DNA of 64,000 nt from an uncultured Bacillota bacterium (GTDB lineage: Bacteria; Bacillota; Clostridia; Christensenellales; Borkfalkiaceae), in assembly GCA_949297575.1 (NCBI GenBank), contig CASFTB010000002.1, positions 1 to 64,000 of the forward strand, written 5' to 3'. Below, one piece after another: positions 13,881 through 57,761 of the stretch. The stretch's first letter is position 1. The number at the start of each line of letters is the position of its first letter. Position numbers and translations under genes: made by a program. Under the pieces are notes generated by a model. That model was not told where the DNA came from, searched no databases, and saw only the letters and a program-made list of their open reading frames with translations.

Positions 13881-13884
13881 AACT

Positions 13885-16320: not shown

Positions 16321-16339
16321 GTCCTACTCCTAAAGTGTT

Positions 16340-17962
16340 TTATTTCAACATTTCCCCGTAAATCGCTTCGTATTCCTTGGCGGAACGCTGCCAGCTGAAG
16401 TCCGAAGACATCGCTCTTCTGACAAGCTCCGGCCAGAAATCTTTATTGTAATAGCAATTGATCGCCTCGCGAATTACGTACAACATATCATATGCGTTGT
16501 AATTGGCAAAGGTAAAGCCGTTTCCGCCTGCCCCTACAGGCTTGATGCTGTCATACAGCCCGCCCGTCTCGCGAACGATCGGCACGGTGCCGTAGCGGCA
16601 GGCGATCATCTGCGACAGGCCGCAGGGTTCAGACTTGGAAGGCATCAGGAACAGATCGGCGCCCGAATATATCTTTCTCGACAGGTCGGGATTAAAGGCG
16701 ATGATCGTGACGAGCTTGCCGACATAGCGCCGCGCAAGGTCGGAAAAATAATTTTCGTAAGCGGAATCCCCTTTCCCCAGGATGATGACCTGAACGTCCT
16801 GCCGGAGCACCTCTTCGATGACCGTGCGCACGAGGTCGAGCCCCTTGTGCGCGACGAGGCGGGAGATGACTGCAATGACGGGCGTATCCGGTTTGACGGG
16901 AAGGTTGAACATCTTTTGCAGCTCTTCTTTGCACTTCTTTTTCGGCGAGAGATCGTCGATGTTGTAGTGTGCAAAAATAGACTTATCCGTCTGCGGGTCA
17001 TAGGAAACCGTATCGATACCGTTCAGCACCCCGAAGAGCTTGAACTCGTTCCTGCGGACGATGGGATCGAGGCCGTGCGAATAGTACGGGTCCTTGATCT
17101 CCTGCGCATAGCGGGGGCTGACCGTAGAGAATTTTTCACTGCATTCGATGGCCGCCTTCATCAGGTTGATGCATTTATTGTACTCAAGCAAGTATTTCCA
17201 CGTATTGGAGATGCCGAAGAGGTCCTCCAGGATGTCAAGGGAATACTTTCCCTGATACTCGATGTTGTGGATGGTGAACAGGGAACGGATGTACTGGTAC
17301 TCGGGGCGGAAACAATAGATCGTTTTCAGATAGATCGCCGCGAGCGCCGCCTGCCAGTCGTGGCAGTGCATGACTTCGGGATAGAAGTTCAGAAACGGCA
17401 TGATCTCCATGACGCTGCGGCAGAAGAAAGCAAAGCGTTCGCCGTCATCGTAGTACCCGTAGCACCCGGGGCGCTTGAAGTAGTATTCATTGTCGATGAA
17501 ATAGAAGGTGACGTTGTTCTCTTCATAGCTGAAGATGCCGCAGTACTGGTTGCGCCAGGCGAGGGGCACGAAGATATTGCCTACATATTTGAACTTGCTG
17601 CGATAATCCCACGAAATATCGGAATACAGAGGGATGACGACGCGGACATCGAAATTGTCATTTGCGGCTATCGATTTGGAAAGCGAGCCGATGACTTCGG
17701 CCAGCCCGCCCGTTGCGATAAAGGGCGTCGCTTCCGATGCGACAAACAAGATCTTCTTTTTCGGCACGACGATGACCTCCGGTGCTGTTTCTTCTTCCTT
17801 CAAAGCTTCGGGGGCTTGCTGTTCGGCCTCTTTCGCCTTCACTTTGAGCTCTTCCACAGATGCAGGTTCGGGCGTAGGCGCGGCCTTTTTGCGCGTGCGC
17901 GCTGCGGGCTTCTTCACCTCTTCCTCCCCTTCCTTTTTTACGGCTTTTTTCTTCGCCGGCAT
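16340..17962 (-). CDS. glgA: Glycogen synthase (GT5) with charged N-terminal extension
   Basis: 540 residues against about 475 in typical GlgA. It transfers glucose from ADP-glucose to growing alpha-1,4-glucan. The first ~70 residues are an extra Lys/Ala/Pro-rich segment (MPAKKKAVKK..., RTRKKAAP) turning acidic before KKKILFVASEATPF. The ADP-glucose loop normally written KTGGL reads A83-TGGL, and the following D-V is E-V. The rest is standard: HNIEYQGKY, SPRYAQEI, GVLNGIDT and the C-terminal SEPCGLSQMIACRYG with ETGGL. GAGGAGG lies upstream. The extension could be a protein- or glucan-binding tail; that is inference. Confidence 0.93.
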   Translation of the reverse strand: MPAKKKAVKKEGEEEVKKPAARTRKKAAPTPEPASVEELKVKAKEAEQQAPEALKEEETAPEVIVVPKKKILFVASEATPFIATGGLAEVIGSLSKSIAANDNFDVRVVIPLYSDISWDYRSKFKYVGNIFVPLAWRNQYCGIFSYEENNVTFYFIDNEYYFKRPGCYGYYDDGERFAFFCRSVMEIMPFLNFYPEVMHCHDWQAALAAIYLKTIYCFRPEYQYIRSLFTIHNIEYQGKYSLDILEDLFGISNTWKYLLEYNKCINLMKAAIECSEKFSTVSPRYAQEIKDPYYSHGLDPIVRRNEFKLFGVLNGIDTVSYDPQTDKSIFAHYNIDDLSPKKKCKEELQKMFNLPVKPDTPVIAVISRLVAHKGLDLVRTVIEEVLRQDVQVIILGKGDSAYENYFSDLARRYVGKLVTIIAFNPDLSRKIYSGADLFLMPSKSEPCGLSQMIACRYGTVPIVRETGGLYDSIKPVGAGGNGFTFANYNAYDMLYVIREAINCYYNKDFWPELVRRAMSSDFSWQRSAKEYEAIYGEMLK

Positions 17963-18009
17963 ATCATTTTACCTCCTCATCGATATTTTCGAATATTTGG
18001 ATCATAGTT

Positions 18010-19116
18010 TCAGATCATTGTACCCTTCGCCAGGAAATACGGCTGCACTTCACAGCCGGACAGAATCCTGTGGTCGCGGATGACGACGTTTTTGTCGGTT
18101 ATGACGCAGTTGAGCTGCACGTTGTCGCCGATGACCGTATCCTGCATGACGATGGAATTGCGTACCACGGAATTTTTGCCGACTTTCACCCCGCGGAACA
18201 GGATGCTGTTTTCCACCTTCCCCTCGACGACACAGCCGTCGGACACGAGAGAGTTGGAAACGACGGATTCGTTGCCGTACTTGGAGGGCGCCGAGTCGCG
18301 AACTTTCGTGTAGATATCTCTGGCACTGAAGAGCTCGTCGCGGACGGATTTGTCGAGCAGTTCCATGTTGTGCTTGAAATAGGACGCGAGCGAATCGATG
18401 GTTGCATGATACCCCTCGAAGTCATACGCGTAGATCTTCATGCCCTTGATATTGCGCCTGAGCACATCCTCGCGGAAATCGCTGTAACCGTTGGAGACGG
18501 CGTCGGAAATGATTGTCTGCAGCAGGCTGCGGCGCAGCACCATGATATTGATATAGAATTTGCTCTTCTTTTTCCCGCGCTCGTTGATATCGATCCCGAC
18601 GACACGGCCGGTCTCATCGACCTTGACGACCGTATATTCGGCCTTGCCGGAGAGCTCTTCGGAATGGGTCACGAGGGTGATATCCGCCTGTTTATCTTCA
18701 TGATAATCGATTATTTCCGAAAAGTCGATGCGGTAAACGCCGTCACAGTCGCAGAGAACGACATATTCTTCATTGCGGCGGTTGATGAATTCGGAAATGC
18801 TCTTGAGCGCTTCGAGGCGGTTTTTGTACAGGCCGGCGTTATCGAAATCACCGAAGGGCGGAAGAAGGATCATGCCGCCTGTCTTGCGGGCGAGGTCCCA
18901 GTCCTTTCCGCTCCCGAGGTGGTCCATCAAAGACTGATAATTGTTTTTCGTGATAATGCCCACCGTCGTAATGCCGGAGTTGACCATATTGGAAAGGGTA
19001 AAATCGATCAGACGATATCTCCCTCCGTACGGGAGCGACCCCATCGTCCTGCGGCGGGAAAGCTCCGGGATGTTCTCATCATGGATATTGGAAAAAATAA
19101 TACCGACAGCGGACAT
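18010..19116 (-). CDS. glgD: Glucose-1-phosphate adenylyltransferase regulatory subunit
   Basis: 368 residues, nucleotidyltransferase fold with a left-handed beta-helix C-terminus (SILFRGVKVGKNSVVRNSIV). Where GlgC has the GGQGSRL nucleotide loop, this protein has IFSNIHDENIPELSRRRTMGSLP, the mark of the catalytically weak GlgD subunit that forms a heteromer with GlgC in Bacillota. The start lies one base after the glgC stop and its ribosome binding site (AGGGGAGGAAG) is inside glgC, so the two subunits are translationally coupled. Confidence 0.93.
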   Translation of the reverse strand: MSAVGIIFSNIHDENIPELSRRRTMGSLPYGGRYRLIDFTLSNMVNSGITTVGIITKNNYQSLMDHLGSGKDWDLARKTGGMILLPPFGDFDNAGLYKNRLEALKSISEFINRRNEEYVVLCDCDGVYRIDFSEIIDYHEDKQADITLVTHSEELSGKAEYTVVKVDETGRVVGIDINERGKKKSKFYINIMVLRRSLLQTIISDAVSNGYSDFREDVLRRNIKGMKIYAYDFEGYHATIDSLASYFKHNMELLDKSVRDELFSARDIYTKVRDSAPSKYGNESVVSNSLVSDGCVVEGKVENSILFRGVKVGKNSVVRNSIVMQDTVIGDNVQLNCVITDKNVVIRDHRILSGCEVQPYFLAKGTMI

Positions 19117-19117
19117 T

Positions 19118-20323
19118 TTATGCTTCCTCCCCTTCCTTGATATTCTTATCGATCATGGCGCCGGCCGCGATCTTTGCTTTGTCTCCGACGATCACGCCCC
19201 TGCCGATCACCGCGATGCCCTTTGCGGTCTCTTTGTCTTCGCCGACAGTTACGCCTTCTCCCAGGGTCACGCTCTCGTCGATGATGGAATAGGTGACCTT
19301 CGACCCTGCCTTGACAACCGTTCCGCTCATGATGACGGAATCTTTGACCACGGCGCCCTTTTCAATGATGACGTTGCTGGACAGCACGGAATTGATGACG
19401 GTGCCGTACACCTCGCACCCGAGGGCGACCATCGAATTTTTCACTTCCGAGCCTTCGCCGAAGTATTCGGGGGGAGCGAGGGGGTTGCGCGAGTGGATCT
19501 TCCAGGAATTGTCAGCTACGTCGAAATTGGGCGTGTCGCCGAGCAGATCCATATTCGCCTCCCACAGCGAAGAGATCGTGCCGACGTCTTTCCAGTACCC
19601 TTCAAAGCGATAGGCAAACATGCGCTCACCAGCCGCCAGCATCGCGGGAAGGACGTTTTTGCCGAAGTCCTTGGAAGAATTCGGATCGTCATCGTCCAGC
19701 TCGAGATATTTATACATCTTTTCGGCCGTAAAGATATAGACACCCATCGAAGCGAGGTTGCTCTTCGGCTGTTTGGGCTTTTCCTCAAACTCATAGACGG
19801 ATCCGTCCTCGTTCGTGTTGAGGATGCCGAAGCGGGAGGCCTCTTTCAGCGGGACTTCTATCGCGGCGATGGTGCAGTCCGCATTATTGTCGATGTGTGC
19901 GCGCAGCATCTTACTGTAATCCATCTTATAGATATGATCACCCGAAAGAATGAGCACGTACTCCGGATTGTACATCTTAATAAAATTAAGATTTTGATAG
20001 ATCGCGTTCGCCGTTCCTTCGTACCACGCAGACTTCGCCTTCTTCTGATACGGCGACAAGACGTGTACTCCCCCAAAGTTGCGGTCGAGATCCCAAGGCT
20101 GTCCGTTTCCGATATACTCGTTGAGCACGAGCGGCTGATACTGCGTGAGCACGCCGACCGTGTCGATCCCCGAATTGATACAGTTGGACAGCGGGAAATC
20201 GATGATCCGATACTTTGCGCCGAACGGAACTGCCGGTTTTGCGATATTATTGGTCAGCGCGTAGAGCCTGCTCCCCTGCCCGCCGGCCAGCAACATTGCA
20301 ACGCATTCCTTCTTTCTTTGCAT
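19118..20323 (-). CDS. glgC: Glucose-1-phosphate adenylyltransferase catalytic subunit
   Basis: 401 residues, making ADP-glucose from ATP and glucose-1-phosphate, the committed step of glycogen synthesis. The N-terminal loop [25 protein letters not shown], the [11 protein letters not shown] region, the sugar-binding [10 protein letters not shown] and [14 protein letters not shown] are all present, with a beta-helix C-terminus. ATG 20323 is chosen over ATG 20329 because the GGGGG before it then has about eight bases of spacing. Second gene of the operon, 68 bases after glgB. Confidence 0.95.
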
Positions 20324-20391
20324 ATGCATAACCCCCAAACAAAAATATTTATATAAACAATACTTTCCTCTATCCCCGTTTATGACGCGAA

Positions 20392-22275
20392 TCAGAGGAT
20401 TTTTTGCAGATATACACAGGTAAACTTAGGAAGCTCGATCTTGATGGAATATTCCTTTCCGTGGCTCGGCTTGCGCTCCGTATTGAAGATGCGTTTACGG
20501 AGTTCATCGTTTCCGCCGAACTTCGGGTGGTCCGTATTGAATACGACTTTATATTTCCCTTTCGGTACGCCGAGCCTGTAATTTTCCGTCTTTGCGCCGG
20601 AAAAGTTGATGACGACGAGGTAAGAATTTCCCTCCTTGTCGCGGCGCATATACGCGAGCACGTTTCTGTCGGCGTCGTTGGGAGCGATCCATTCAAACCC
20701 GTCCCACGAATCTTCGATCTCGTGCATGGCGGGCGTATCCCGATAGAACGCATTGAGCGCCGCATTCATGTCGGACAATTTTTTGTGGAGAGGATACTCT
20801 TTCAGGAAAAATTCGAGACCCTCTTTATAATTCCACTCCTTGAACTGTCCGAACTCACAGCCCATAAAGAGCAGTTTTTTGCCGGGGTGCGACATCATGT
20901 ATCCCATAAAGGCGCGTACATTCGCAAACTTGTCTTCATAATTCCCGGGCATTTTGTCGATCAGGGAATGCTTGCCGTATACGACTTCGTCGTGCGAAAT
21001 GGGCAGAACATAGTTTTCCGTAAAGGCATACATCATCGAGAAGGTAAGTTTATTGTGGTTGCCCTTCCGGAAATACGGGTCTGTCTGCATGTAGTCGAGC
21101 ACGTCGTTCATCCAGCCCATGTTCCATTTGAAGTTGAACCCGAGCCCGCCGATATCCACGGGCTTGGTGACCAACGGCCATGCGGTAGACTCCTCCGCGA
21201 TCATCAAAGCGTCGGGATATTGGGAAAAGACCGTCGAATTGAGCCTGCGCAGAAATTCGATCGCCTCGAGGTTTTTGTTCTCCCCGTATTTATTGGGGAG
21301 CCACTCGCCGGGCCGCTTGTCGTAGTCGAGGTACAGCATGGAGGCGACGGCATCCACGCGAAGGCCGTCGATATGGAATTTATCGAAGAAAAAAACGGCG
21401 TTCGAAATGAGGAAAGAGAGGATCTCGTTCCTGCCGTAATCAAAGCGGCGCGTTCCCCAGCTCTTGTGCTCCTGCCTGTCCCACGCGGGGCTCTCGTACA
21501 GGGGCTCACCGTCAAATTCATACAGGCCGTGCGCGTCCTTCGGGAAGTGCGCTGGTACCCAATCCATGATCACGCCGATGCCGTTTTTGTGGCACTCGTC
21601 GATCAGGCGCATGAAGTCGTGCGGCGTGCCGAGGCGGGAAGTGATCGCGTAATACCCCGTCACCTGGTAACCCCAGGATCCGTCATACGGATATTCGCTG
21701 AGGGGCATAAACTCGATATGCGTATACCCCATCTCCTTGACATAAGGGATGAGTTCGTCGATCAGTTTGTTGAAGTCGAAGAAATTGCCGTCCCCGTATT
21801 GCCTCCAGGAAAGCGCATTCATCTCATAGATATTCATCGGAGAGGAATACGGGTTCCTTTCCCTGCGCTTTTTGAGATACTCTTTGTCGGACCAGCGGAA
21901 GCCGTCCATGTTATAGGTCTTGGACGCCGTCTTCGAGGGCGTTTCCGCATGGAAAGCATACGGATCCGCTTTATAGAGGAAGCGCCCGTCGTGCGTGCGG
22001 ATACAGTATTTATATACGGAAAATTCCTTTATCCCCTCGATAAAGACGGACCAGGTCTCGCCGTCGAGCAGACGCTCCATCTTGTTCGCATCGGGATCCC
22101 ACTCATTGAAATCCCCGACGACGGATACTTCCGCCGCGTGCGGCGCCCATACCCTGAAGCGGTATCCTTTGCGCCCATCGTCCTTTTCCGGGTGCGCCCC
22201 GAAAAAATCATACGCTTTGAAATTTTCCCCGTGATGGAAGACATATAAAGGGAAATCGACAACTGACTGCATCAT
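20392..22275 (-). CDS. glgB: 1,4-alpha-glucan branching enzyme
   Basis: 627 residues, GH13 enzyme that makes alpha-1,6 branches. A CBM48 N-domain ([21 protein letters not shown], about 40-60) precedes the barrel with [26 protein letters not shown] carrying the nucleophile Asp, [10 protein letters not shown] with the catalytic Glu, and SHDEV with the third acid. The double N-terminal CBM48 of some proteobacterial enzymes is absent, normal for Bacillota. GGAGG lies four bases before ATG 22275; the adjacent ATG at 22272 is equally possible. First gene of the operon behind a strong promoter. Confidence 0.95.
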
Positions 22276-45380: not shown

Positions 45381-46343
45381 TCACATAGAGATCATCTGAA
45401 GGGTCTCGTACAGTTCGTAATTGAACTTCTTTTTCATGCTGACCGCTTCGATGATGTCGAGATCGATGATCTCGTTTTTATGGATACCGACGACCCTGTT
45501 GCCGATGCCCTCTTTGAGCATACGGACGGCGCGGTTGCCGAACTGCGCAGCGAGCATCCTGTCCGCCATGGAAGGCGAGCCGCCCCTCTGCACGTGACCG
45601 ATCGTCGTGCCACGCACGGAGTACGTCGTCATCGCCTGCAGCTTCTTGGAGAATTCGTCAGCCGTAGACACGCCTTCCGCGAGGACGATGATATTGCTGT
45701 GCTTGCCGTTTGCGCGGCTCCTGTTGATGCGGAGAACGACGTCCTCCATATCGTACGCGATCTCGGGCACGATGATGATCTCCGCCCCGCTCGCAATGCC
45801 GGAATACAGGGCGATGTCGCCGCAGCGGCGCCCCATCACTTCGACAACGCTGATGCGCTCATGAGAGGTCATCGTATCGCGCAGCTTGTTGATGATGTCG
45901 AGGCAGGTATTGACTGCAGTGTCAAAGCCGAGCGTATAGTCGGTATATTCGAGGTCATTGTCGATCGTCCCGGGGATGCCGATCGTCGGGATGCCGTATT
46001 CCTCGCTCAGGCACTTTGCCCCGCGGAAAGAGCCGTCTCCGCCGATGACGACGAGGCCTTCGATACCGCGGTCATTCAATGTTTTCACCGCCTGTTTCTG
46101 GCCCTCGACGGTATACATCTCTACGCAGCGGGCCGTGCGGAGCATGGTGCCGCCGCGCTGGACGATATCGGAAACGCTGCGCATCTCCATCGGGACCATG
46201 TCATCGTTGATCAGTCCGGCATATCCCTGGCGGATCCCGTAGATCTCCATCCCAAAGTATTTTGCCGTCCTGACGACCGCCCTGATACAGGCGTTCATGC
46301 CCGGCGCATCGCCGCCGCTCGTCAATACTCCGATCCTTTTCAT
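45381..46343 (-). CDS. pfkA: ATP-dependent 6-phosphofructokinase
   Basis: 320 residues, the standard bacterial length. VLTSGGDAPGMNACIRAVVR is the ATP loop, GGDGS (about 102-106) marks an ATP- rather than PPi-dependent enzyme, and GTIDND carries the catalytic Asp. EVMGRRCGDIA and GHVQRGGSPSMADR bind fructose-6-phosphate. CGGAGG precedes the ATG; TGTTATAAT at 46403-46411 (minus strand) is an extended -10 candidate upstream. In many Clostridia pfkA follows dnaE and precedes pyk; here pyk is missing and a PfkB kinase follows. Confidence 0.96.
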   Translation of the reverse strand: MKRIGVLTSGGDAPGMNACIRAVVRTAKYFGMEIYGIRQGYAGLINDDMVPMEMRSVSDIVQRGGTMLRTARCVEMYTVEGQKQAVKTLNDRGIEGLVVIGGDGSFRGAKCLSEEYGIPTIGIPGTIDNDLEYTDYTLGFDTAVNTCLDIINKLRDTMTSHERISVVEVMGRRCGDIALYSGIASGAEIIIVPEIAYDMEDVVLRINRSRANGKHSNIIVLAEGVSTADEFSKKLQAMTTYSVRGTTIGHVQRGGSPSMADRMLAAQFGNRAVRMLKEGIGNRVVGIHKNEIIDLDIIEAVSMKKKFNYELYETLQMISM

Positions 46344-46521: not shown

Positions 46522-49500
46522 TCAAACGAGCACGATGTCTGCATCACTTAGGAAGAGGCACAGTTCGTCTCTCAGCCCGCGGCAGTCATTGATGCCCTTC
46601 AGCTTGTACATCTTGCCTCCTCTCTTGATTTTGACGACGGTCTCGCCGTTCATATAGTGTGAAAAGAGGGAAGTCAGGTCGTCAAACTCCTCTTCCGTCA
46701 GGGAGGAGGCGTTCAGCCACAGGGCGTGTTCCCGCGCGGGTGTGCGCTGAGGAGCCTGCCCCGCCTCCGCCGCATTCCCCTCGTCCGGCCTGTATTCCTG
46801 CAGCTTATCCAATAAGATGACGGGCGCCTTTTCGTCGTCCAACTGCAACTTTCCGGAAAGCCGCACGATCTTGTCTGCCGCCACGTCCCCGCGGATCTTT
46901 TCAAAGACGTTGGGGAAGGCGACGCATTCGATGCTGCCGTACAGATCTTCGACGGAAATGAAGGCCATGCTCGCCCCCGTCCGCGTATTGATCTTCTTGA
47001 ATGTACCGATGATCCCCCCCATCGTGACGGAGGCGCCGTCCGTAAGATCCGGATAGGTACGGCGGCCGTCCTCGTCTTCCTCATAGTTCTGCATCATGAG
47101 GCAGTTGAAAGTACAGTCCGTAAAAGCGGAAGCATATTTTTCGAAAGGATGCCCGCTGACATAAACGCCCAGGACGGCCTTCTCCTTTGCAAGCTTCTCG
47201 TTCGTATCGTACTCGGCGACGTCCGGGTAAGCGATGTCCGTCAAATCTTCCTCAATGATATCGCCGAACAGGCTCATCTGCATGCTCTGCTTTTGTTTCG
47301 CGATCTTGTTGGCGCGGTCGAGCACGCTCTCATATACGGAAGAGAGCTGCGCCCTGTTTTTCCCGAAGCGGTCAAACGCCCCCGCACAGATCAGCCCTTC
47401 GAGCATCCTTTTGTTCAGCAGATGCGCGCACCTGAAAACGAAATCAGGAAAGCTCGCAAAGGGGCCGTTCGTCTCGCGCTCGTCGATAATAGCCTGCGTC
47501 GCGCCGATTCCAACACCCTTTAACGCGCTCAGCCCGAAACGAACTCCTTGCCCCTGCACGGAAAAGTATGCCTTGCTCTCGTTGATGTCCGGCGGGAGGA
47601 CAAGGATATTCTTCTCTTTGAGGTAAACGATATATTTTGAAACTTCGTCGATCTTGTCGATCCGGTTGTTGAGGATCGCGGCGAGGAATTCCTTTGGATA
47701 AAACCTTTTCAGATATGCAGTTCGATAGGCGAGCACCGCATAGCAGGTCGCATGCGCTTTGTTGAACGCGTAGCTCGCAAAGCTCTCCATATCGCCGAAG
47801 ATCTTTGCGGCAACTTCTTTCGGGATCCCGCGGCTGACGGCCCCCTCTATGTTTCCCCCATCCTTGATGTTGCCGAAGATGAATTTGTCCTTCTGCGCCA
47901 TCAGTTCCGCCTTGTTTTTCTTGCCCATCGCGCGGCGGACGAGGTCCGCCTGCCCGAGCGAGAATCCGGCAAGATCCTGGAATATCTGCATGACCTGCTC
48001 CTGGTACACGATGACGCCGTACGTGACTTTCAGGATATGTTCGAGGAGCGGTGTATCGTATTTTACCTGAGAGGGATTTAGCTTATTCGCGATATAGGTC
48101 GGGATATACGCCATGGGCCCGGGGCGGTACAGGGCGACGCCCGCTATGATATCTTCGAGGCAGCCGGGCTTAAGTTCCTTCATGAACTTCTTCATGCCTC
48201 CTTGCTCGAGCTGGAACACGGCGTCCGTATCGCCTTCGGAAATGAGCTCGTAGGCCTCTTTGTTCTCATACCCGATTTCGTCCCAGTCGATGACCCTGCC
48301 CGTATCCTCGCGGATATAGTCGCAGGCCTTTTTGATATCCGTCAGCGTCGTCAGCGCGAGGAAGTCCATCTTGAGCATGCCGATAGACTCAACTTCCTTC
48401 ATGTTGAACTGCGTCGTGATATCCTCGCCGTTGCGGGAAAGAGGCACCGCTTCCGCGATGGGCTTGCGGCAGATGACGACGCCCGCCGCATGCATGGAAG
48501 TATTACGAGGCATTCCCTCCAATTTCAGCGCCATGTCGATGACGCGGTGGAGCTGTTCGTCCGTCTCGTAGAGCGAGATAAAGTCCTGGTTCCGCTTCTT
48601 TTCCTGCTCTTCGAGCTTTTTCTGCAATTCGGCGCGCTTGTCTTCGTCCGTTTCCGATGCGATCTTCTGCTGCAGTCCAGGGATATTTCTGCCGAGGAGC
48701 TCCCCGATGGCAGACTTGCCGTCCATCAGCTTCGTCACGCGGTCTGTTTCGGAATACGGCACGCGCAGTACTCTGCCAACGTCCTTGATCGCCGCCTTTG
48801 AGGCAAGCGTACCGAACGTGACAATTTGAGCGACGTTCTCGGGGTGATATTTTTTACGAACATATTCTATCGTTTCCGGCCGCCGTTCGTTGCAAAAATC
48901 GACGTCGAAATCGGGCATGGTTACGCGGTCAGGGTTCAGGAACCTCTCAAAGAAGAGGTCGTATTTGAGGGGATCGATATCCGTGATCCCGATCGCATAG
49001 GCAACGATGCTCGCCGCGCCGCTCCCGCGCCCCGGCCCGACGGGGATACCCTTTGACTTGGACCACTGGATAAAGTCCATGACGATGAGATAATACTCCG
49101 CAAACCCCATGCCGAGGATGATCCCGAGCTCATAATCGGCGCGCTTTTTGACGGCGTCCGTGATCTCCCCGTAGCGGCGCTTGAGCCCCTCCCATGTCAG
49201 TTTCGTCAGATAGTCCTTCGGGTCGGATCCGTCCTCCGGCGTATATCCGGGGATAAGCGATTTATCCTTGATCGGGTCGCCGTTATCCTTCAGGTCGAAG
49301 CACGGCTCCTCCGCACATTTTTGTGCGATGACGAGCGTGTTTTCGATCGCCTCGGGAATGTAAGAAAAGAGCTCCGACATCTCCTCAGCAGATTTGAGGT
49401 AAAACTCATGCGTCCCGAAGCGCATGCGCTTCGGGTCTTCTATCGTCTTTTTCGTCTGGATGCAGAGCAGAACGTCCTGCATCTCCCAATCGTCCTTGCG

Positions 49501-50118
49501 AAGGTAATGGACGTCGTTGGTCGCGACGGGCGGGATGCTGAGTTCTTTGGACAGGCGAAGCAGCAGCGGCAAAATCCTGCGCTGCTCTTCCAGTCCGTGA
49601 TCCTGGATCTCAATATAAAAATCGTCGCCGAAAATCTCTTTCAGCTCGAGCGCAGCGGTCCTCGCTCCCTCGTAGTTGTTCTTGAGGAGCAATTTCGGGA
49701 TGCGCCCCGCAAGACAGGCGGAGAGGCAAACAAGCCCCTCGCTGTGTTCGCGCAGAAGCTTATAGTCGATGCGAGGCTTGTAATAAAAGCCGTCGACATA
49801 GGCGACGGAATCGAGCTTGATAAGATTTTTATAACCCGTCTTGTTTTTGGCGAGCAGGACAAGATGTTCAAAATCGCTCGTATTGTCCTTTACATGCAGA
49901 TCCTGCGTCAAATACATTTCACAGCCGATGATCGCCTGGATGTTATTTTTTCTGCACTGCTCGGCAAACTGCAGCGTCCCGTACATATTCCCGTGGTCGG
50001 TAATGGCGATCGCCTTGATGCCGTTTTTGACGCAGTGCGCCACAAGTTCCTTTATCTTGCATGCACCGTCGAGCAGGCTGTATTCCGTGTGGAGATGAAG
50101 ATGTACAAAATCAGACAT
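46522..50118 (-). CDS. dnaE: DNA polymerase III subunit alpha
   Basis: 1198 residues from ATG 50118. The N-terminal PHP domain (FVHLHLHTEYSLLDGACK, ITDHGNMYG) is followed by the Pol III catalytic core with GPGRGSGAAS, PDFDVDFCNERR carrying the metal-binding Asp pair, the tau/beta-binding region with FNKAHATCYA, and a C-terminal OB fold (VTMGGIIGTFKKINTRTG). It is the replicative or lagging-strand polymerase. Its place after whiA and the Crh-like gene, before pfkA, is the conserved clostridial order. The gap to the Crh-like gene is 25 bases. Confidence 0.96.
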   Translation of the reverse strand: MSDFVHLHLHTEYSLLDGACKIKELVAHCVKNGIKAIAITDHGNMYGTLQFAEQCRKNNIQAIIGCEMYLTQDLHVKDNTSDFEHLVLLAKNKTGYKNLIKLDSVAYVDGFYYKPRIDYKLLREHSEGLVCLSACLAGRIPKLLLKNNYEGARTAALELKEIFGDDFYIEIQDHGLEEQRRILPLLLRLSKELSIPPVATNDVHYLRKDDWEMQDVLLCIQTKKTIEDPKRMRFGTHEFYLKSAEEMSELFSYIPEAIENTLVIAQKCAEEPCFDLKDNGDPIKDKSLIPGYTPEDGSDPKDYLTKLTWEGLKRRYGEITDAVKKRADYELGIILGMGFAEYYLIVMDFIQWSKSKGIPVGPGRGSGAASIVAYAIGITDIDPLKYDLFFERFLNPDRVTMPDFDVDFCNERRPETIEYVRKKYHPENVAQIVTFGTLASKAAIKDVGRVLRVPYSETDRVTKLMDGKSAIGELLGRNIPGLQQKIASETDEDKRAELQKKLEEQEKKRNQDFISLYETDEQLHRVIDMALKLEGMPRNTSMHAAGVVICRKPIAEAVPLSRNGEDITTQFNMKEVESIGMLKMDFLALTTLTDIKKACDYIREDTGRVIDWDEIGYENKEAYELISEGDTDAVFQLEQGGMKKFMKELKPGCLEDIIAGVALYRPGPMAYIPTYIANKLNPSQVKYDTPLLEHILKVTYGVIVYQEQVMQIFQDLAGFSLGQADLVRRAMGKKNKAELMAQKDKFIFGNIKDGGNIEGAVSRGIPKEVAAKIFGDMESFASYAFNKAHATCYAVLAYRTAYLKRFYPKEFLAAILNNRIDKIDEVSKYIVYLKEKNILVLPPDINESKAYFSVQGQGVRFGLSALKGVGIGATQAIIDERETNGPFASFPDFVFRCAHLLNKRMLEGLICAGAFDRFGKNRAQLSSVYESVLDRANKIAKQKQSMQMSLFGDIIEEDLTDIAYPDVAEYDTNEKLAKEKAVLGVYVSGHPFEKYASAFTDCTFNCLMMQNYEEDEDGRRTYPDLTDGASVTMGGIIGTFKKINTRTGASMAFISVEDLYGSIECVAFPNVFEKIRGDVAADKIVRLSGKLQLDDEKAPVILLDKLQEYRPDEGNAAEAGQAPQRTPAREHALWLNASSLTEEEFDDLTSLFSHYMNGETVVKIKRGGKMYKLKGINDCRGLRDELCLFLSDADIVLV

Positions 50119-50143: not shown

Positions 50144-50395
50144 TCAGAGCTTTGAAATAAAATCGGCAAGGCCCTTCGCGGCCGCGCGTGCATCCGGCCC
50201 TTCGGCGAGCACGGTATATTCGTCCCCTTTCAGGAACTTCATGGAGAGCAGGCCTATGATGCTCTTCGCATTCCCGCGCTTGTTCCCATCTTCAAAGACG
50301 ATCTCGCTTTTATACTTACCCGCTTCAAAGACGATGCGCTGCGCGTCGTACGCATTGTAGGTGTCTTTGTTGTATATAAAAGTCCTTCTTTCCAT
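50144..50395 (-). CDS. Crh-like HPr homologue lacking the phosphorylatable histidine
   Basis: 83 residues with the HPr fold pattern: FEAGKYKSEIVFEDGNK, NAKSIIGLLSM and KGDEYTVLAEGPDARAAAKGL. The active-site loop that reads GIHARPA in HPr is TYNAYDAQ here, and the whole protein contains no histidine, so it cannot carry PTS phosphate. The kinase-target Ser (S45 in AKSIIG, HPr Ser46) is kept. This is the profile of Bacillus Crh, the catabolite corepressor that HPr kinase phosphorylates on Ser and that then binds CcpA. Location agrees: it begins one base after whiA, as crh does in Bacillus, and hprK lies 3.8 kb upstream on the same strand. Confidence 0.87.
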   Translation of the reverse strand: MERRTFIYNKDTYNAYDAQRIVFEAGKYKSEIVFEDGNKRGNAKSIIGLLSMKFLKGDEYTVLAEGPDARAAAKGLADFISKL

Positions 50396-50396
50396 G

Positions 50397-51359
50397 CTAT
50401 TCCTCCTCCGGATAAGACCGGGCGATCTTTTCCAGCCGCCTCAGCCTGTGGTTCAAACAGCTCTTTGAGATATGCAGCCGCTCCGACAGTTCTTTGAGCG
50501 AGGCCTCCTTATCCATGAGCCGTGCTTCGGCCGTTTCCCGCAGAACGGGATCGAGTTCCCCGAGCCCGTCCGCCGCCGCGATGCGTTCGATGGCACACAC
50601 CTGCCTTACGGAAGCGATCGCGGTCCTGTCAAAATTTTTTTGCATGCAGTTTGCCACGCGGTTGATGTTGTTCCGCTCGTCCTTTTTCCATGCAAGTTTA
50701 TCCAATTTCTGCAGAGAATTTTTTGCGCCGATCAGATCCAGAAAATCGGAAATGCTCTCCCTGCTTTTCAGGTAAACGACGCTCGTCCCCTTCCTCGATA
50801 CGTTCTTTGCCAAAACGTCAAAATGCTCCAAAAGCCCCAAATAGGCCGCGGCGACCGTGCCGGACGAAAACACGATCTCCAAATGGTAACCGGAGCGCGC
50901 GTTCTCTTCCTTCGGCACGCTGCAGCTCCCGCTGCCGAGAAAAGCACCTTTGATGTATGCCCTCTTGCAGCACTCATTCTCCGTGAGGTACTTGTCGATA
51001 TCGAAGCTGAGGGCGATCTCTTCCCCCGCCCGCTCCGCAATTCCGAGCTCGGACAGGATAAAGAGAGACCTCTCTGAAAGGCAGCGGAACGCGAGCCTGT
51101 TCTTCCCGTTGCGGGCATCCTGTACCGCCTGAACAACGTTCAGCTCGGCGCCGTAGATATCCTCCAGCAAGCCGACCATGTATTCGGCGATCTCCTCGTT
51201 TTCGGTCACGAACTCAAAGCCGACCAGCGAGCCGCTGCGTATGATGCTGCCCGTGGCGCGCAAAAACGCAGACAGAGCCGCCGTCTTGCAGCACGTGTTT
51301 TCAAACCCGTCGCGCAGTATTTCCCTCTTGATCTCGGCCGTAAAATTCCCCGCAGACAC
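50397..51359 (-). CDS. whiA: WhiA-family DNA-binding protein
   Basis: 320 residues from GTG 51359, chosen because VSAGNFTAEIKREILRD matches the WhiA N-terminus, with AAGGAG about 12 bases upstream. The N-terminal two-thirds are a degenerate LAGLIDADG homing-endonuclease fold (CCKRAYIKGAFLGSGSCSVP), and the C-terminus (about 280-310) is a helix-turn-helix, ASLKELSERLHISKSCLNHRLRRL. WhiA influences cell division and chromosome segregation in Bacillota and sporulation in actinomycetes. Usually rapZ and yvcK precede it; here a PHP gene does. Confidence 0.94.
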   Translation of the reverse strand: MSAGNFTAEIKREILRDGFENTCCKTAALSAFLRATGSIIRSGSLVGFEFVTENEEIAEYMVGLLEDIYGAELNVVQAVQDARNGKNRLAFRCLSERSLFILSELGIAERAGEEIALSFDIDKYLTENECCKRAYIKGAFLGSGSCSVPKEENARSGYHLEIVFSSGTVAAAYLGLLEHFDVLAKNVSRKGTSVVYLKSRESISDFLDLIGAKNSLQKLDKLAWKKDERNNINRVANCMQKNFDRTAIASVRQVCAIERIAAADGLGELDPVLRETAEARLMDKEASLKELSERLHISKSCLNHRLRRLEKIARSYPEEE

Positions 51360-51360
51360 T

Positions 51361-52137
51361 TTACAGGTGTTTCTCCTTATATTCTCTGAAACGGAAAGAA
51401 GGTCTCCTTCCGTCAATGTTGTCGATACGCTCCCTCGGGATGTCGACGCGGGACAAAAGCTCATCCACGAGTTTAGTGTCGCCGATACGATCCACGCTGT
51501 GCGCGTCGGAATCGACGATGAAGCGCACGCCTGTATCGCAGACCTTTGCCAGTTCTTCATCGCTCAGATGTATCTTTTTTGCGTTGAGTTCGATGTAGGT
51601 GCCGTGATCGCGCGCGGCCTTTGCGACCTCTGCAACGTCGCAAAAGCTCTGGTAATTCAGGTGCGTGATCGCGTCGATCGGATACTTTTCTATGCTCCGG
51701 ATATATGCATTTGTATTGTAGCGGATCAGACTCTTGCTCGGCTGCAGGCGGAAGGTCGTACAGAAAGAGTTTGCCACGAGCAAGTTCCAAAAATCGTGGA
51801 AGCTGGAAAATTTCACGAACCGATGGATGCCCATCAGATAGATGTCGAAGTCCTTGTAATCCTCTTCCCGCAGATCCGTCCGCCCGTCTTCGTCACACAG
51901 ATTCGCCTCGATCCCGACGTAGACGTTCAGCCCCGTCTTTTCCCTCGCTTCTCTGCAATCTTCGATCAGCTGCGGCATCCGTTCGCGCCGCAGCCCGAAA
52001 GCGAGCTGCTCAAAACCGTGGTCGCTGATCGCGATCTCTTCGAGGCCGATCTCCTTTGCCCGCATCACGTTCTCCATCACGGTCCCTTTCCCGTGGCTGT
52101 AGATCGTATGCGTATGATAATCACCCGTCAGAAGCAT
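51361..52137 (-). CDS. PHP-domain phosphoesterase
   Basis: 258 residues. DYHTHTIYSHGKGT supplies the first metal-binding HxH and a later His, AISDHGFEQL the next, GIEANLCDEDG a Glu, and VDSDAHSVDRIGD the final Asp-His pair: the full trinuclear metal site of the PHP family (YcdX/histidinol-phosphatase-like). Whether it acts on histidinol phosphate cannot be decided; no his genes are near. It overlaps murB by 17 bases and ends one base before the whiA start codon, so all three are translated together. Confidence 0.88.
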   Translation of the reverse strand: MLLTGDYHTHTIYSHGKGTVMENVMRAKEIGLEEIAISDHGFEQLAFGLRRERMPQLIEDCREAREKTGLNVYVGIEANLCDEDGRTDLREEDYKDFDIYLMGIHRFVKFSSFHDFWNLLVANSFCTTFRLQPSKSLIRYNTNAYIRSIEKYPIDAITHLNYQSFCDVAEVAKAARDHGTYIELNAKKIHLSDEELAKVCDTGVRFIVDSDAHSVDRIGDTKLVDELLSRVDIPRERIDNIDGRRPSFRFREYKEKHL

Positions 52138-53026
52138 ATTGGTCTCCTATGTATCTTATCTCTTCCTCGAGCACTATACCCGTCTCGGAGAAAACTTTCT
52201 CTCGTACCGCCGCAATGACGCGGCAAAAATCCGCCGCCGTCGCTCCGCCGCAATTGACGATAAAATTCGCATGCTTTTCGGATACGCGCGCCCCGCCGAT
52301 CCGCAGTCCCTTCAAGCCCGCCCTTTCAATGAGCTCCCCCGCAGATGCGCCGCACGGATTTTTGAACACACACCCCATGCTGCGCTCGCGCGGCAGCGAT
52401 GCTCTTGCAGCCAGCGCCGCGGCGATCGCCTCCCCCGCCCGTTCGTCCGCCTCTGTGCGGAACGTCGCCGAAAGGATGACGGAGCCTTCGTGCATAAAAC
52501 GGGTATCCTTATAGTCGAAGCGGCATTCGCCTGCGCGCAGGCATCGGACTTCGCCCTTTTCATAGACGGTGACGCTCTCCGCCGCACCGCCGATGTAACG
52601 GCCGCGCGCCCCCGCATTCATAAACAGTGCCCCGCCGACAGTCGCGGGAATGCCCGCCAGGAACGCCAAACCGCCGCGGCCGTGCGCGGCTGCCAGAGAA
52701 AGCATCGCCGCTACGGGCGCACCGCACTCCGCAAAGAGCCGTCCTCCTCGCAGTACCATCCGGCCGGCATGGACAGTACGGATGATCGCGCCGCGGAATC
52801 CCGCATCCGCCGGCAAGACGTTTGAACCGAAACCGAGCAAAAAATAAGGAACTTTTTCCTGCTCCGCCGCACGGACACAGCGAACGATCTGCCCCGCGCC
52901 CCGCGGCCGAAAGGCGACGGACGCGTCACCTCCCACGCCGACCGTGCTGTGCGCCCCGAGAGAAAACGGAGCGTCGTAAGGTATATCCCGCAGCCGTTCA
53001 AGCAAACGCAGCAATTCCGTGGCCAT
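52121..53026 (-). CDS. murB: UDP-N-acetylenolpyruvoylglucosamine reductase
   Basis: 301 residues, FAD-dependent second step of UDP-MurNAc synthesis. GGDASVAFRPRG, LGFGSNVLPADAGFRG and GLAFLAGIPATVGGALFMNAGA form the FAD site. The type IIb signature MGCVFKNPCGASAGELIERAGLKGLRIGGARVSEKHANFIVN follows, with the catalytic Ser position occupied by Cys (GCVFKNP), which occurs in some families. AAAGGAGG precedes the ATG. Members of the hprK cluster in Bacillota often include murB. Confidence 0.95.
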   Translation of the reverse strand: MATELLRLLERLRDIPYDAPFSLGAHSTVGVGGDASVAFRPRGAGQIVRCVRAAEQEKVPYFLLGFGSNVLPADAGFRGAIIRTVHAGRMVLRGGRLFAECGAPVAAMLSLAAAHGRGGLAFLAGIPATVGGALFMNAGARGRYIGGAAESVTVYEKGEVRCLRAGECRFDYKDTRFMHEGSVILSATFRTEADERAGEAIAAALAARASLPRERSMGCVFKNPCGASAGELIERAGLKGLRIGGARVSEKHANFIVNCGGATAADFCRVIAAVREKVFSETGIVLEEEIRYIGDQYASDG

Positions 53027-53070: not shown

Positions 53071-54069
53071 TTATATGAGGAAATTTTCCAACTTTTTTGC
53101 GCCGTTTTTGTCTCCGCGCAGTGCGAGGACGGCGCTGTCAAGAAGGGCTGCACGCGCCTCTTCGGAGAGGAATGCGCTCACGGATAAGGCGGGCTTTAGT
53201 GTTTCCGCCTGCGAAAGGACGCTTTCATTTCCGTACACCGCATACTTTGCGCTCAACATGCCGATCCGCGGCAGGCGCGCCTGCACATCCTCTGAAAGCA
53301 AATAATCCAGAAAGGCAAGACATCGTGCGTACGCTTCTTTCTGCCCTGTACAGACGCACATATATTGCCAAAGGTCTGAAAAGTCTCCCAAAGGTTCTGC
53401 TCTGAAAGAGACGCCCTTTGCGCTGAGGCGCCAGTAATCCCGCTGCGTTGCGACCAGATAAGAATATTTACCGGATACGAGATCCGAATATGCGCGCAGA
53501 GGCTCTTCCTGTCTATAGTCACCGGAAGGAAGTCCGCCGCGCACGGCGGCAACGGCCGCTGCAGTCTTCCCGTTAGTGCCGAGAACGGTGTTCTGCGCCG
53601 TCGCTCCTGCCGGGTCTTCCCCCGTCGAAAAGAGAAAGTAGGCGCCCCTGCACCACGGATAGGCGAGCGTGTCTCCTCCCGCGCGGGCATACGGAAAGCT
53701 GTAGCCTTCCAGCGGGCGTGCAACGTCAGCCGCAAACGGGCTGTCTGTCCCGAAGGAGAGCAGGTCGGGGATATCTCCGCCCTTTATCGCCGCCGCGGCA
53801 CTTTCGGCCGTGTACGCCGATACAAGCACAAAAACGCCGCTCTCCCCGGCATAGTCCCGCGCAACGTCACGCAGAAAGGAGGCGCGCGAACCCTTTCCTC
53901 CTTCAAAGCTGTCGATATGCCAAAGCCGCAGTATCCCTCCGTATTCGGCGGGCTCCCTTTCATCCTCCGCATTGGCCGCAGGATACACCCAAAAGCACAC
54001 CGCCAGGACGACGGCACACAAGACAGCGCATAAGATCGCCGTACACACTCTTCTCGGACATTTCCTCAT
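53071..54069 (-). CDS. Exported solute-binding-protein-like protein (orphan)
   Basis: 332 residues from ATG 54069. A basic N-terminus and a long hydrophobic segment (VCTAILCAVLCAVVLAVCFW) end in PAANA, a likely signal-peptidase I site; no lipobox Cys is in place. The rest resembles a reduced family 1 solute-binding protein: GILRLWHIDSFEGGKG, IPDLLSFGTDSPFAA, then a C-terminal region with YMCVCTGQKEAYARCLAFLDYLLSEDVQARL. No ABC permease or ATPase gene is nearby. It starts straight after the hprK terminator with a -10 box (TATACT) six bases before the ATG and no Shine-Dalgarno sequence. Confidence 0.72.
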   Translation of the reverse strand: MRKCPRRVCTAILCAVLCAVVLAVCFWVYPAANAEDEREPAEYGGILRLWHIDSFEGGKGSRASFLRDVARDYAGESGVFVLVSAYTAESAAAAIKGGDIPDLLSFGTDSPFAADVARPLEGYSFPYARAGGDTLAYPWCRGAYFLFSTGEDPAGATAQNTVLGTNGKTAAAVAAVRGGLPSGDYRQEEPLRAYSDLVSGKYSYLVATQRDYWRLSAKGVSFRAEPLGDFSDLWQYMCVCTGQKEAYARCLAFLDYLLSEDVQARLPRIGMLSAKYAVYGNESVLSQAETLKPALSVSAFLSEEARAALLDSAVLALRGDKNGAKKLENFLI

Positions 54070-54075
54070 AGGAAT

Positions 54076-54081
54076 AGTATA
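54076..54081 (-). promoter_or_regulatory. -10 element of a possible leaderless solute-binding-like gene
   Basis: TATACT on the minus strand ends six bases before ATG 54069. The region 17 bases upstream (TGCTAT) is a poor -35, so the call is weaker than for the other two leaderless candidates. Confidence 0.5.
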
Positions 54082-54106
54082 TTGCACGACGCGCCGCGAT
54101 AGCACG

Positions 54107-54137
54107 AAAAAAGAGCAGCGCCCGCTCTGCACTGCTC
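54107..54137 (-). terminator. Terminator of uvrC-HAD-hprK
   Basis: On the minus strand GAGCAGTGC-AGAGCGG-GCGCTGCTC (one U-G pair) followed by TTTTTTCG, 20 bases after the hprK stop. Confidence 0.9.
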
Positions 54138-54156: not shown

Positions 54157-55071
54157 TCATCTGCCGATCGTCCGCCCGATCAGTTCCTGCGCCGCGTCAT
54201 AGCCCATGCTCTTAAGTCGGAAGTTGCGCGCGGCGACCTCGATGATGATGGAGAGATTTCTGCCCGGTTTGACGGGGATCACATGCTTCATCACCTTCAC
54301 CCCGAGGATGGTCTCATAGAGCGTCCCCTCGCCCAGGCGGTCGTATACCTTCCCCTCTTCCCAGTTTTCCAGCTCCATGACGAGTTCGATCTCCTTTTCG
54401 TTGAGAAAAGACCCGGACCCGTACATATTTTTGACGTTGATGATGCCGATCCCGCGCAGCTCCATAAAATAACGGATCATTTCCGGAGACGTGCCGATCA
54501 GCGAATCGGAGACCTTTTTTATGATGACGCTGTCGTCTGCGACAAGACGATGCCCGCGTTTGATGAGCTCCATAGCAGTCTCGCTCTTGCCGACGCCGCT
54601 GTGCCCCGTGATGAGGATACCGACGCCGGAGATGTCCATCAGCACGCCGTGTATCGTCGTCTGCGGCGCCAACTTCTTGTTCAGGTAGAAGAACAGGTCG
54701 TTCATGATCGCCGTCGTCACCTTATCCGTCCGCAGGATGGGGCAGCCCGTCTTGCGCGCCTCCCCGATGATCTCCTGTAAGACGGGCAGATCGCGCGAAA
54801 GGATGAGGCACGGGATGTCTTTATAGGAAAAGAGCATCTTCACGCGTTCGCGGCGGATATCGGGTGAGAGGTCGCGGAGATATTCATATTCAGAGTTTCC
54901 GAATACGATGATGCGCGACGAGTCGAAATATTTGAAATATCCCGCGAGCTGCAGTCCCGGCCGCGTGACACTGTAAGAGGAGAGCGTCACCCTCCCCCTC
55001 CCGGCAAAGACGATCTCGAGGCCCAGATCGCCGCAGAAGCTGTCAAGCAATATCGTTTCCTGTTCGTTCAT
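54157..55071 (-). CDS. hprK: HPr kinase/phosphorylase
   Basis: 304 residues. Walker A GHSGVGKS at 156-163, RLVADD with the catalytic acid at about 179, and the family signature MELRGIGIINVKNMYG (about 203-218) are all intact, behind an N-terminal Mur-ligase-like domain. It phosphorylates Ser46 of HPr and Crh according to fructose-1,6-bisphosphate and phosphate levels, the sensor step of CcpA catabolite repression. It overlaps the upstream HAD gene by four bases. A suitable target, the Crh-like protein, is encoded 3.8 kb downstream; a His-containing HPr is not in this window. Confidence 0.96.
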   Translation of the reverse strand: MNEQETILLDSFCGDLGLEIVFAGRGRVTLSSYSVTRPGLQLAGYFKYFDSSRIIVFGNSEYEYLRDLSPDIRRERVKMLFSYKDIPCLILSRDLPVLQEIIGEARKTGCPILRTDKVTTAIMNDLFFYLNKKLAPQTTIHGVLMDISGVGILITGHSGVGKSETAMELIKRGHRLVADDSVIIKKVSDSLIGTSPEMIRYFMELRGIGIINVKNMYGSGSFLNEKEIELVMELENWEEGKVYDRLGEGTLYETILGVKVMKHVIPVKPGRNLSIIIEVAARNFRLKSMGYDAAQELIGRTIGR

Positions 55072-57732: not shown

Positions 57733-57761
57733 ATTATACAATACCGCGGCAAAATTTGCAA
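57733..57761 (-). promoter_or_regulatory. Predicted promoter of uvrC-HAD-hprK
   Basis: On the minus strand TTGCAA (57756-57761), 17 bases, TATAAT (57733-57738). The leader is about 30 bases. The -35 abuts the arsR terminator. Confidence 0.72.

Follow-up and report, generated by a model that had tools for sequence, protein, structure and literature searches.

A histidine-free HPr-like protein in Candidatus Borkfalkia points to a possible regulation-only arm of the classical sugar-sensing pathway

Introduction

In a 64,000-nucleotide stretch of DNA from a genome of Candidatus Borkfalkia (hereafter the window, taken at its full length), the gene at positions 50144 to 50395 directly follows whiA and encodes a small HPr-family protein in which the histidine at HPr position 15 (His15) is gone and the serine at position 46 (Ser46) is kept. 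Across the order Christensenellales, HPr kinase/phosphorylase (HprK) follows serine proteins of this kind and not the sugar phosphotransferase system (PTS). The best explanation, which we regard as probable though well short of certain, is that the window protein is a purely regulatory HPr, forming with HprK a serine switch free of both the PTS and CcpA. The usual teaching treats HprK and HPr Ser46 as an extra layer on the PTS, with CcpA as the output.

The window genome (1.67 Mb, 91.8% complete) was compared with a 'family' group of 101 genomes and an 'order' group, both as drawn by the genome search tool; the order sample comprises 247 genomes, each at least 90% complete. When GTDB species genomes were scanned with a Borkfalkia alignment, 36 loci were returned, 34 of them with a YNAYDAQ-type loop, and the genus-named records among them were all Candidatus Borkfalkia, assigned by NCBI to Christensenellales.

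Results

An HPr-family protein without His15

The open reading frame (ORF) runs from 50395 to 50144 on the minus strand and has an ATG start, 83 codons and zero histidine residues. Its ribosome-binding site is strong (GGAGGAGG) and ends six bases 5' of the ATG. Against the Pfam PTS-HPr family PF00381 the protein scores 57.5 bits (cut-off 23, E 1.4e-15), and its best sequence match in the PDB is Bacillus Crh (1zvv, E 2.1e-9). An AlphaFold2 model based on 72 sequences (pLDDT, the predicted local distance difference test, 96.4) shows its elements in the order known from HPr; helix 15–25 begins right after residue 14, and helix 46–50 right after Ser45. A Foldseek search with this model returned 37 chains at E <0.001, all of them HPr or Crh entries, with template modelling scores of 0.79–0.95 by query length. 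On both profile cut-off and predicted fold, then, the protein belongs to the HPr family.

Where HPr has GIHARPA, the window protein has TYNAYDAQ. When it is aligned with L084, a canonical HPr from this order, HPr positions 15, 17 and 18 are N, Y and D, so the protein has N and Y where a PtsH phosphocarrier requires His15 and Arg17; Ser45 aligns with HPr Ser46, inside GNAKSIIGLLSM. The ORF, the Pfam match and the alignment together confirm a preliminary description of this DNA, which had claimed a histidine-free HPr of 83 residues with a TYNAYDAQ loop and a retained serine.

The same gene follows whiA in all 10 Borkfalkia genomes of the family sample. These genomes and 34 named contigs of the GTDB scan yielded 44 Borkfalkia-type proteins (the same species may appear twice), each unbroken and 83–84 residues long. 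Histidine is missing altogether from 31 of the 44, and the other 13 have it elsewhere, none at position 15. We computed the ratio of nonsynonymous to synonymous substitution (dN/dS) for 42 sequences of 83 codons (861 pairs), using only pairs with dS <1.5, synonymous sites being near saturation. The Borkfalkia median was 0.20 for the whole gene (137 usable pairs), 0.086 for residues 11–25 (208) and 0.063 for residues 42–54 (329). By these values the loop is constrained within Borkfalkia nearly as tightly as the serine region, and is a kept surface and not the outcome of decay; its conservation may in part reflect a fit to HprK itself. The loss of His15, Arg17 and Pro18 would suit a decaying, functionless relic of HPr, an idea that is contradicted by purifying selection, which peaks in the loop and the serine region, and by the 44 unbroken frames; we consider it the most improbable of all the alternatives. 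With its conserved place after whiA, its dN/dS of about 0.20 and its HPr fold model, the gene is far from a chance ORF.

The protein resembles Crh of Bacillus subtilis in its HPr fold, in having His15 replaced and Ser46 kept, in the position of its gene directly after whiA and in the presence of HprK in the genome. It differs in the loop, which reads GLQARPA in Crh and has lost Arg17 and Pro18 here, and in its genome, where no CcpA, His15-bearing HPr or enzyme I was found. Its score against NF010354 (PRK13782), which we take to be the Crh model, is 50.9 bits, compared to a cut-off of 123. Since this presumed Crh cut-off is not reached and no CcpA partner was found, the protein should not be filed as Crh; as regards the serine switch, it probably works like Crh. 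From HPr (PtsH), with which it shares the fold, the Pfam family and the Ser46 region, it differs in lacking His15 and Arg17 and in the failure to find enzyme I in its genome.

HPr types across the Christensenellales

We read HPr-family proteins across the order and grouped them by genomic context (L003 and L033–L083 are left out of the context table). The whiA-linked set comprises 111 proteins, namely 67 from as many genomes of the order sample, with the window counted among them, 43 Borkfalkia-type loci and one further locus of the GTDB scan. Ser46 is present in 111/111 and His15 is absent from 110/111; the single protein with histidine at position 15 (L207, from G205) has the sequence GLHPKT. 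Arg17-Pro18 is kept in only four. The alignment of whiA-linked HPr genes that had been proposed as a check, run here within the Christensenellales, makes His15 loss the rule and finds Ser46 in every protein read. The loop is nearly fixed within Borkfalkia and varies from genus to genus across the order (DGLKAKAAA, EGLRASKAA, KRMNADTAT and others). It does depart from HPr further than the loop of Bacillus Crh, as had been claimed, yet such departure is the rule in this order.

Proteins encoded beside enzyme I genes are different. His15 and Arg17-Pro18 are intact in all 20 that were read, and Ser46 has given way to Arg or Lys in 12 (L004, L087, L088, L090–L092, L094, L096, L098, L105, L110 and L196). 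Beside DUF4364 genes, none of 27 proteins has His15 and all 27 have Ser46. Other or undetected contexts (n = 19) comprise 10 proteins with Ser46 and no His15, four with His15 and no Ser46, three with both and two doubtful cases. Ten loci were typed by sequence only, some of them in genomes already counted as whiA-linked. We give roughly even chances to the view that the two phosphorylation functions of HPr have been split, the enzyme I-linked proteins keeping His15 and often losing Ser46 while the whiA- and DUF4364-linked proteins have Ser46 without His15; the serine half and HprK would then stand alone, without PTS or CcpA, and the loops of each lineage would have adapted to new partners. In an HPr tree, 81 whiA-linked genes split 41/40 across the midpoint root with weak support, so we make no claim of common descent for all whiA-linked copies.

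The window genome carries a second histidine-less HPr gene (L002 on contig C12 of G000; 1465–1686, plus strand, 74 residues, DAKSILGIFSL), followed by a DUF4364 gene (1789–2310, plus strand). The same pair was seen in 27 loci read, L002 included. The two histidine-less proteins might share HprK, with DUF4364 as their transcriptional output: the recurrent adjacency fits this, as does a predicted DUF4364 model that is winged-helix-like by weak structural matches, many of them to winged-helix regulators. Unrelated proteins were also matched, however, no PDB match fell below E 0.01 in the structure search, and neighbourhood is not binding. Moreover, DUF4364 occurs in 94/101 family genomes, compared to 49 for HprK and 47 for HPr, and being far commoner than either it does not depend on them. 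We consider an output through DUF4364 unlikely.

Enzyme I and His15-bearing HPr

The whiA-linked gene and L002, neither with His15, are the two believable HPr-family genes of the window genome, in which no His15-bearing HPr was found. A third PF00381 match (C34, 14.4 bits) was dismissed as chance, its frame lying opposite an ECF-transporter-like gene (named by eye). No TIGR01417 match over the cut-off was found for enzyme I in this genome, which is 91.8% complete; partial matches on C31 were rejected, since they fall inside a dikinase-like gene (name read by eye). The genome search proposed in the preliminary description, for a normal HPr, ptsI and ccpA, therefore turned up no His15-bearing HPr, no enzyme I and, as described below, no recognisable CcpA. 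With His15 and Arg17 gone and neither enzyme I nor a His15-bearing HPr found in the genome, the protein cannot pass phosphate on through position 15.

Enzyme I exceeded the cut-off in 2/101 family genomes (G012 and G085) and 22/247 order genomes. G012 has enzyme I together with a canonical HPr (L004). The 10 Borkfalkia genomes of the sample have only two HPr matches each, one whiA-linked (read in 10/10, no His15) and one beside DUF4364, the latter read in G000 only and placed by coordinates in all 10. Two enzyme I genes, G102:C3:238284–239924 and G257:C40:15710–17311, each contain one in-frame TGA; they may be broken or subject to another reading of TGA.

HprK follows the serine proteins

In the order sample, HprK was over its cut-off in 134 genomes, an HPr match at E ≤0.001 was present in 130, and enzyme I in 22; G177 and G293, with HprK matches of 22–23 bits, below the cut-off, are counted as lacking HprK. 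HprK is independent of enzyme I across the order (both, 10; HprK only, 124; enzyme I only, 12; neither, 101; phi –0.06). By comparison, HprK was found in 77 of the 78 order genomes with a read Ser46 HPr, whether whiA-linked (67) or of another histidine-less type (11), the exception being G166. Some of the 11 were typed by sequence only, with neither DUF4364 nor whiA detected beside the gene. In 77 of these 78 genomes the Ser46 HPr is without His15. Fifteen genomes yielded only His15 proteins among those read, and 12 of them lack HprK; G112, G134 and G260 have it. A further 37 of the 130 genomes are counted apart, 35 with weak unread matches and two (G262 and G292) with reads of doubtful alignment (L138 and L215); all 37 have HprK, and in G292 a His15 protein (L092) was read as well. 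When these 37 are counted as histidine-less, the cross-table of HprK and histidine-less HPr is 114 (both), 20 (HprK only), 1 (HPr only) and 112 (neither), with phi 0.84.

A similar picture holds in the family sample, where 46 genomes have HprK and HPr, three HprK alone, one HPr alone and 51 neither. Kinship among genomes was considered only in the within-genus comparison: the five family genera holding both states contain 17 genomes with both genes, 22 with neither and zero mismatches. In genus g10, hprK and the HPr gene lie on different contigs in 5/5 HprK-bearing genomes (G009, G042, G055, G084, G099), so the joint absence in sister species is not readily explained by one deletion.

The HprK of the window genome itself is a full-length equivalog, well over the TIGR00679 cut-off of 240 bits. 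The motifs HGVL, GHSGVGKSE, ADD and ELRGIGI, whose residues we take to be the catalytic ones, are all present. It is likely the kinase of Ser45, and the window protein very probably serves it. In the P-loop of HprK, the position following the first Gly is H, N, K, S or E across the family and His in the Borkfalkia genes read; it is Asp in two solved relatives aligned.

CcpA, and findings that weigh against a serine-only switch

The preliminary description had the protein acting with CcpA and named a lack of CcpA in the genome as a refutation; such action is not supported. None of the 101 family genomes passed the ccpA equivalog cut-off, which is strict (2/14 control genomes pass it, and 54/101 family genomes match below it). 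The only LacI-type gene of the window genome adjoins a maltose ABC operon; Pfam recognises its helix-turn-helix (HTH) alone and no sugar-binding core, and CcpA chains of the PDB match it only within residues 13–97, around the DNA-binding part. At E 0.001, no LacI HTH was found in 3/28 Borkfalkia genomes, G028, G056 and G328 (95%, 94% and 88% complete). Catabolite-responsive element (cre)-like sites were not enriched in the window, with 3 found and 5.6 expected. Arg17 of HPr, presumably a CcpA contact, is replaced by Tyr. The cut-off failures, the HTH-only LacI gene and the LacI-free Borkfalkia genomes led us to reject CcpA as the leading view of the partner.

Several findings weigh against a switch free of PTS and CcpA. 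At least one LacI-type gene is present in 25/28 Borkfalkia genomes, and some of these genes are full length and could replace CcpA. Such a gene is what a classic Crh role would call for, in which the Ser45-phosphorylated protein serves CcpA, or a LacI-type protein in its stead, as corepressor; the nearest solved relatives include Crh in complex with CcpA, and LacI-type CcpA homologues have been proposed as partners of Ccel_0806, the Crh-like protein of Clostridium (Ruminiclostridium) cellulolyticum (PMC3656788). Set against the CcpA, LacI, Arg17 and cre findings above, this role seems improbable to us.

Other such findings concern the PTS. The window genome is not complete, and G085, a Borkfalkia genome, has enzyme I beside an EII-like gene, its two HPr matches being the whiA-linked one and the one beside DUF4364. 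Both would fit a normal PTS whose enzyme I and His15-bearing HPr are merely missing from an incomplete assembly. The rarity of enzyme I in family and order, and the finding of only whiA-linked and DUF4364-side HPr matches in 10/10 Borkfalkia genomes, argue against this, and we give it very little credence. At locus L081 of G085 (contig C16, 335–3111, plus strand), enzyme I lies behind an ORF that, by eye, is like EIIBC and runs into a pyrophosphatase-like C-terminus; the locus may be an acquired PTS cassette or an assembly error.

The remaining findings concern the pairing itself. Of the 134 HprK-bearing order genomes, 20 have no histidine-less HPr at the threshold (17 without any HPr match, and G112, G134 and G260 with His15 only), which means that weak genes escaped the search or that HprK and these proteins do not always pair. 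Given the 17, the pairing is strong yet incomplete at this sensitivity. In the family, HprK occurs without HPr in G045, G069 and G079, and HPr without HprK in G034. These four mismatches sit in four genera other than the five compared above: g2, g13 and g17 (HprK alone) and g18 (HPr alone).

Gene neighbourhood

The genes around the HPr gene are listed in Table 1. Their order on one strand is uvrC, a HAD-type gene, hprK, a solute-binding-protein-like gene, murB, a PHP-domain gene, whiA, the HPr gene, dnaE and a pfkA-like gene. The names uvrC, HAD, dnaE and pfkA are presumed from the sequences. From hprK to dnaE the genes overlap or are separated by ≤44 bases, given the longest start of the solute-binding-protein-like gene. 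One base separates the end of whiA from the HPr gene and hprK lies 3.8 kb upstream, just as the preliminary description had it: directly after whiA, with HPr kinase nearby. Its wider interpretation holds in part: a Crh-like, regulatory HPr is supported, in that the absence of His15 leaves no His15 phosphocarrier role and HprK is present and co-occurring. The promoter-like and terminator-like sites are consensus matches only, of which the region has 22 and 31, compared to 7.6 and 15.0 in shuffles.

Table 1. Coordinates of the HPr-like gene and of neighbouring features in the window
Feature	Position	Strand	Evidence and remarks
whiA-linked histidine-free HPr (Crh-like), 83 residues	50144–50395	–	loop TYNAYDAQ at residues 12–19; Ser45 = HPr Ser46
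whiA	50397–51359	–	TIGR00647, 207.6 bits; GTG start at 51359, TAAGGAG upstream
PHP-domain gene	51361–52137	–	PF02811, 49.4 bits
murB	52121–53026	–	NF010480, 264 bits
Solute-binding-protein-like gene, longest start	53071–54132	–	PF13531, 22.4 bits, below cut-off 25
hprK, HPr(Ser) kinase/phosphorylase	54157–55071	–	TIGR00679, 356 bits; PF07475, 232 bits; PDB 1ko7, E 2.8e-76
dnaE, directly downstream of HPr gene	46522–50118	–	ORF only; presumed name
pfkA-like gene, after dnaE	45381–46343	–	ORF only; presumed name
Terminator-like stem after pfkA-like gene	45365–45344		pattern match only
Promoter-like site before uvrC, possible operon start	57733–57761	–	consensus match 10/12, no proof of function

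In five of the 10 Borkfalkia genomes (G000, G076, G085, G093, G100) hprK lies within 5 kb of the HPr gene, and in the other five the two are 132 kb apart or on other contigs. Among 15-kb regions downstream of hprK in other family genera, 13/15 are without whiA, two of these having pfkA-like matches (L241) or a pfkB match (L244); L238 and L243 run from hprK to whiA with no HPr gene after it. The solute-binding-protein-like gene, an odd presence between hprK and murB, sits in the same place in these last two regions, which are from another genus.

A glycogen cluster (12078–22275, minus strand), consisting of a glgX-/amylase-like gene, glycogen phosphorylase, glgA, glgD and glgB, lies 28 kb from the HPr gene. 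The preliminary description had coupled the protein to glycogen and glycolysis genes. What speaks for this is neighbourhood, in the form of the cluster and the pfkA-like gene downstream; cre-like sites are unenriched, and the coupling is a conjecture. A special case of the HprK-read serine switch is direct enzyme control, in which the free or the phosphorylated form would bind methylglyoxal synthase, a phosphofructokinase, glycogen phosphorylase or the like and no transcription factor would take part. Bacillus Crh regulates MgsA, according to PMC10714963, E. coli HPr binds glycogen phosphorylase, judging by the titles of PDB entries 9s8k and 9s8b, and pfkA-like and glycogen phosphorylase genes both lie within the window. 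Direct enzyme control is a possibility that we take seriously and still hold to be rather doubtful.

Discussion

HprK phosphorylates the serine at high ATP or fructose-1,6-bisphosphate and removes the phosphate at high inorganic phosphate. In the purely regulatory switch that we favour, HprK would phosphorylate Ser45 according to the energy and sugar state of the cell and later remove the phosphate. Through the surface formed by loop 12–19 and the Ser45 helix, the phosphorylated and the free protein would then engage or let go of a partner. We infer that this partner is probably something other than CcpA. A metabolic enzyme is more likely, or a regulator that is not of the LacI type, DUF4364 being a candidate of the latter kind.

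The proximity of whiA and crh in Bacillus is on record (PMC10714963). Ccel_0806 already sets a precedent for a Crh-like protein in the absence of HPr, differing in its proposed LacI-type partners. A phosphocarrier structure from C. cellulolyticum, 7ff5, ranked second in our fold search. Brucella and Xanthomonas reportedly also use HprK and the HPr of an incomplete PTS for regulation, without sugar permeases. Brucella is reported to differ in keeping EI-Ntr and NPr, whereas no enzyme I was found in the window genome. Our literature search, which left subscription journals and preprints largely uncovered and so does not establish absence from print, found no publication dealing with HPr or HprK in this order, none joining DUF4364 and HPr, and no account of an order-wide split into His-only and Ser-only proteins, of HprK independent of enzyme I, or of a LacI-free case. 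A duck gut metagenome study mentions Borkfalkia once, and also mentions phosphotransferase (PMC11316934).

Taken together, HprK and two histidine-less, serine-keeping HPr-like proteins suggest a purely regulatory branch of the textbook sugar-sensing pathway. In an order of gut bacteria that mostly lack enzyme I, HprK lives on, and for the most part it is present or absent along with a histidine-free HPr. These organisms offer a natural setting for studying the serine branch alone, and they bring the question of which targets other than CcpA HPr(Ser-P) and Crh have within direct reach of experiment.
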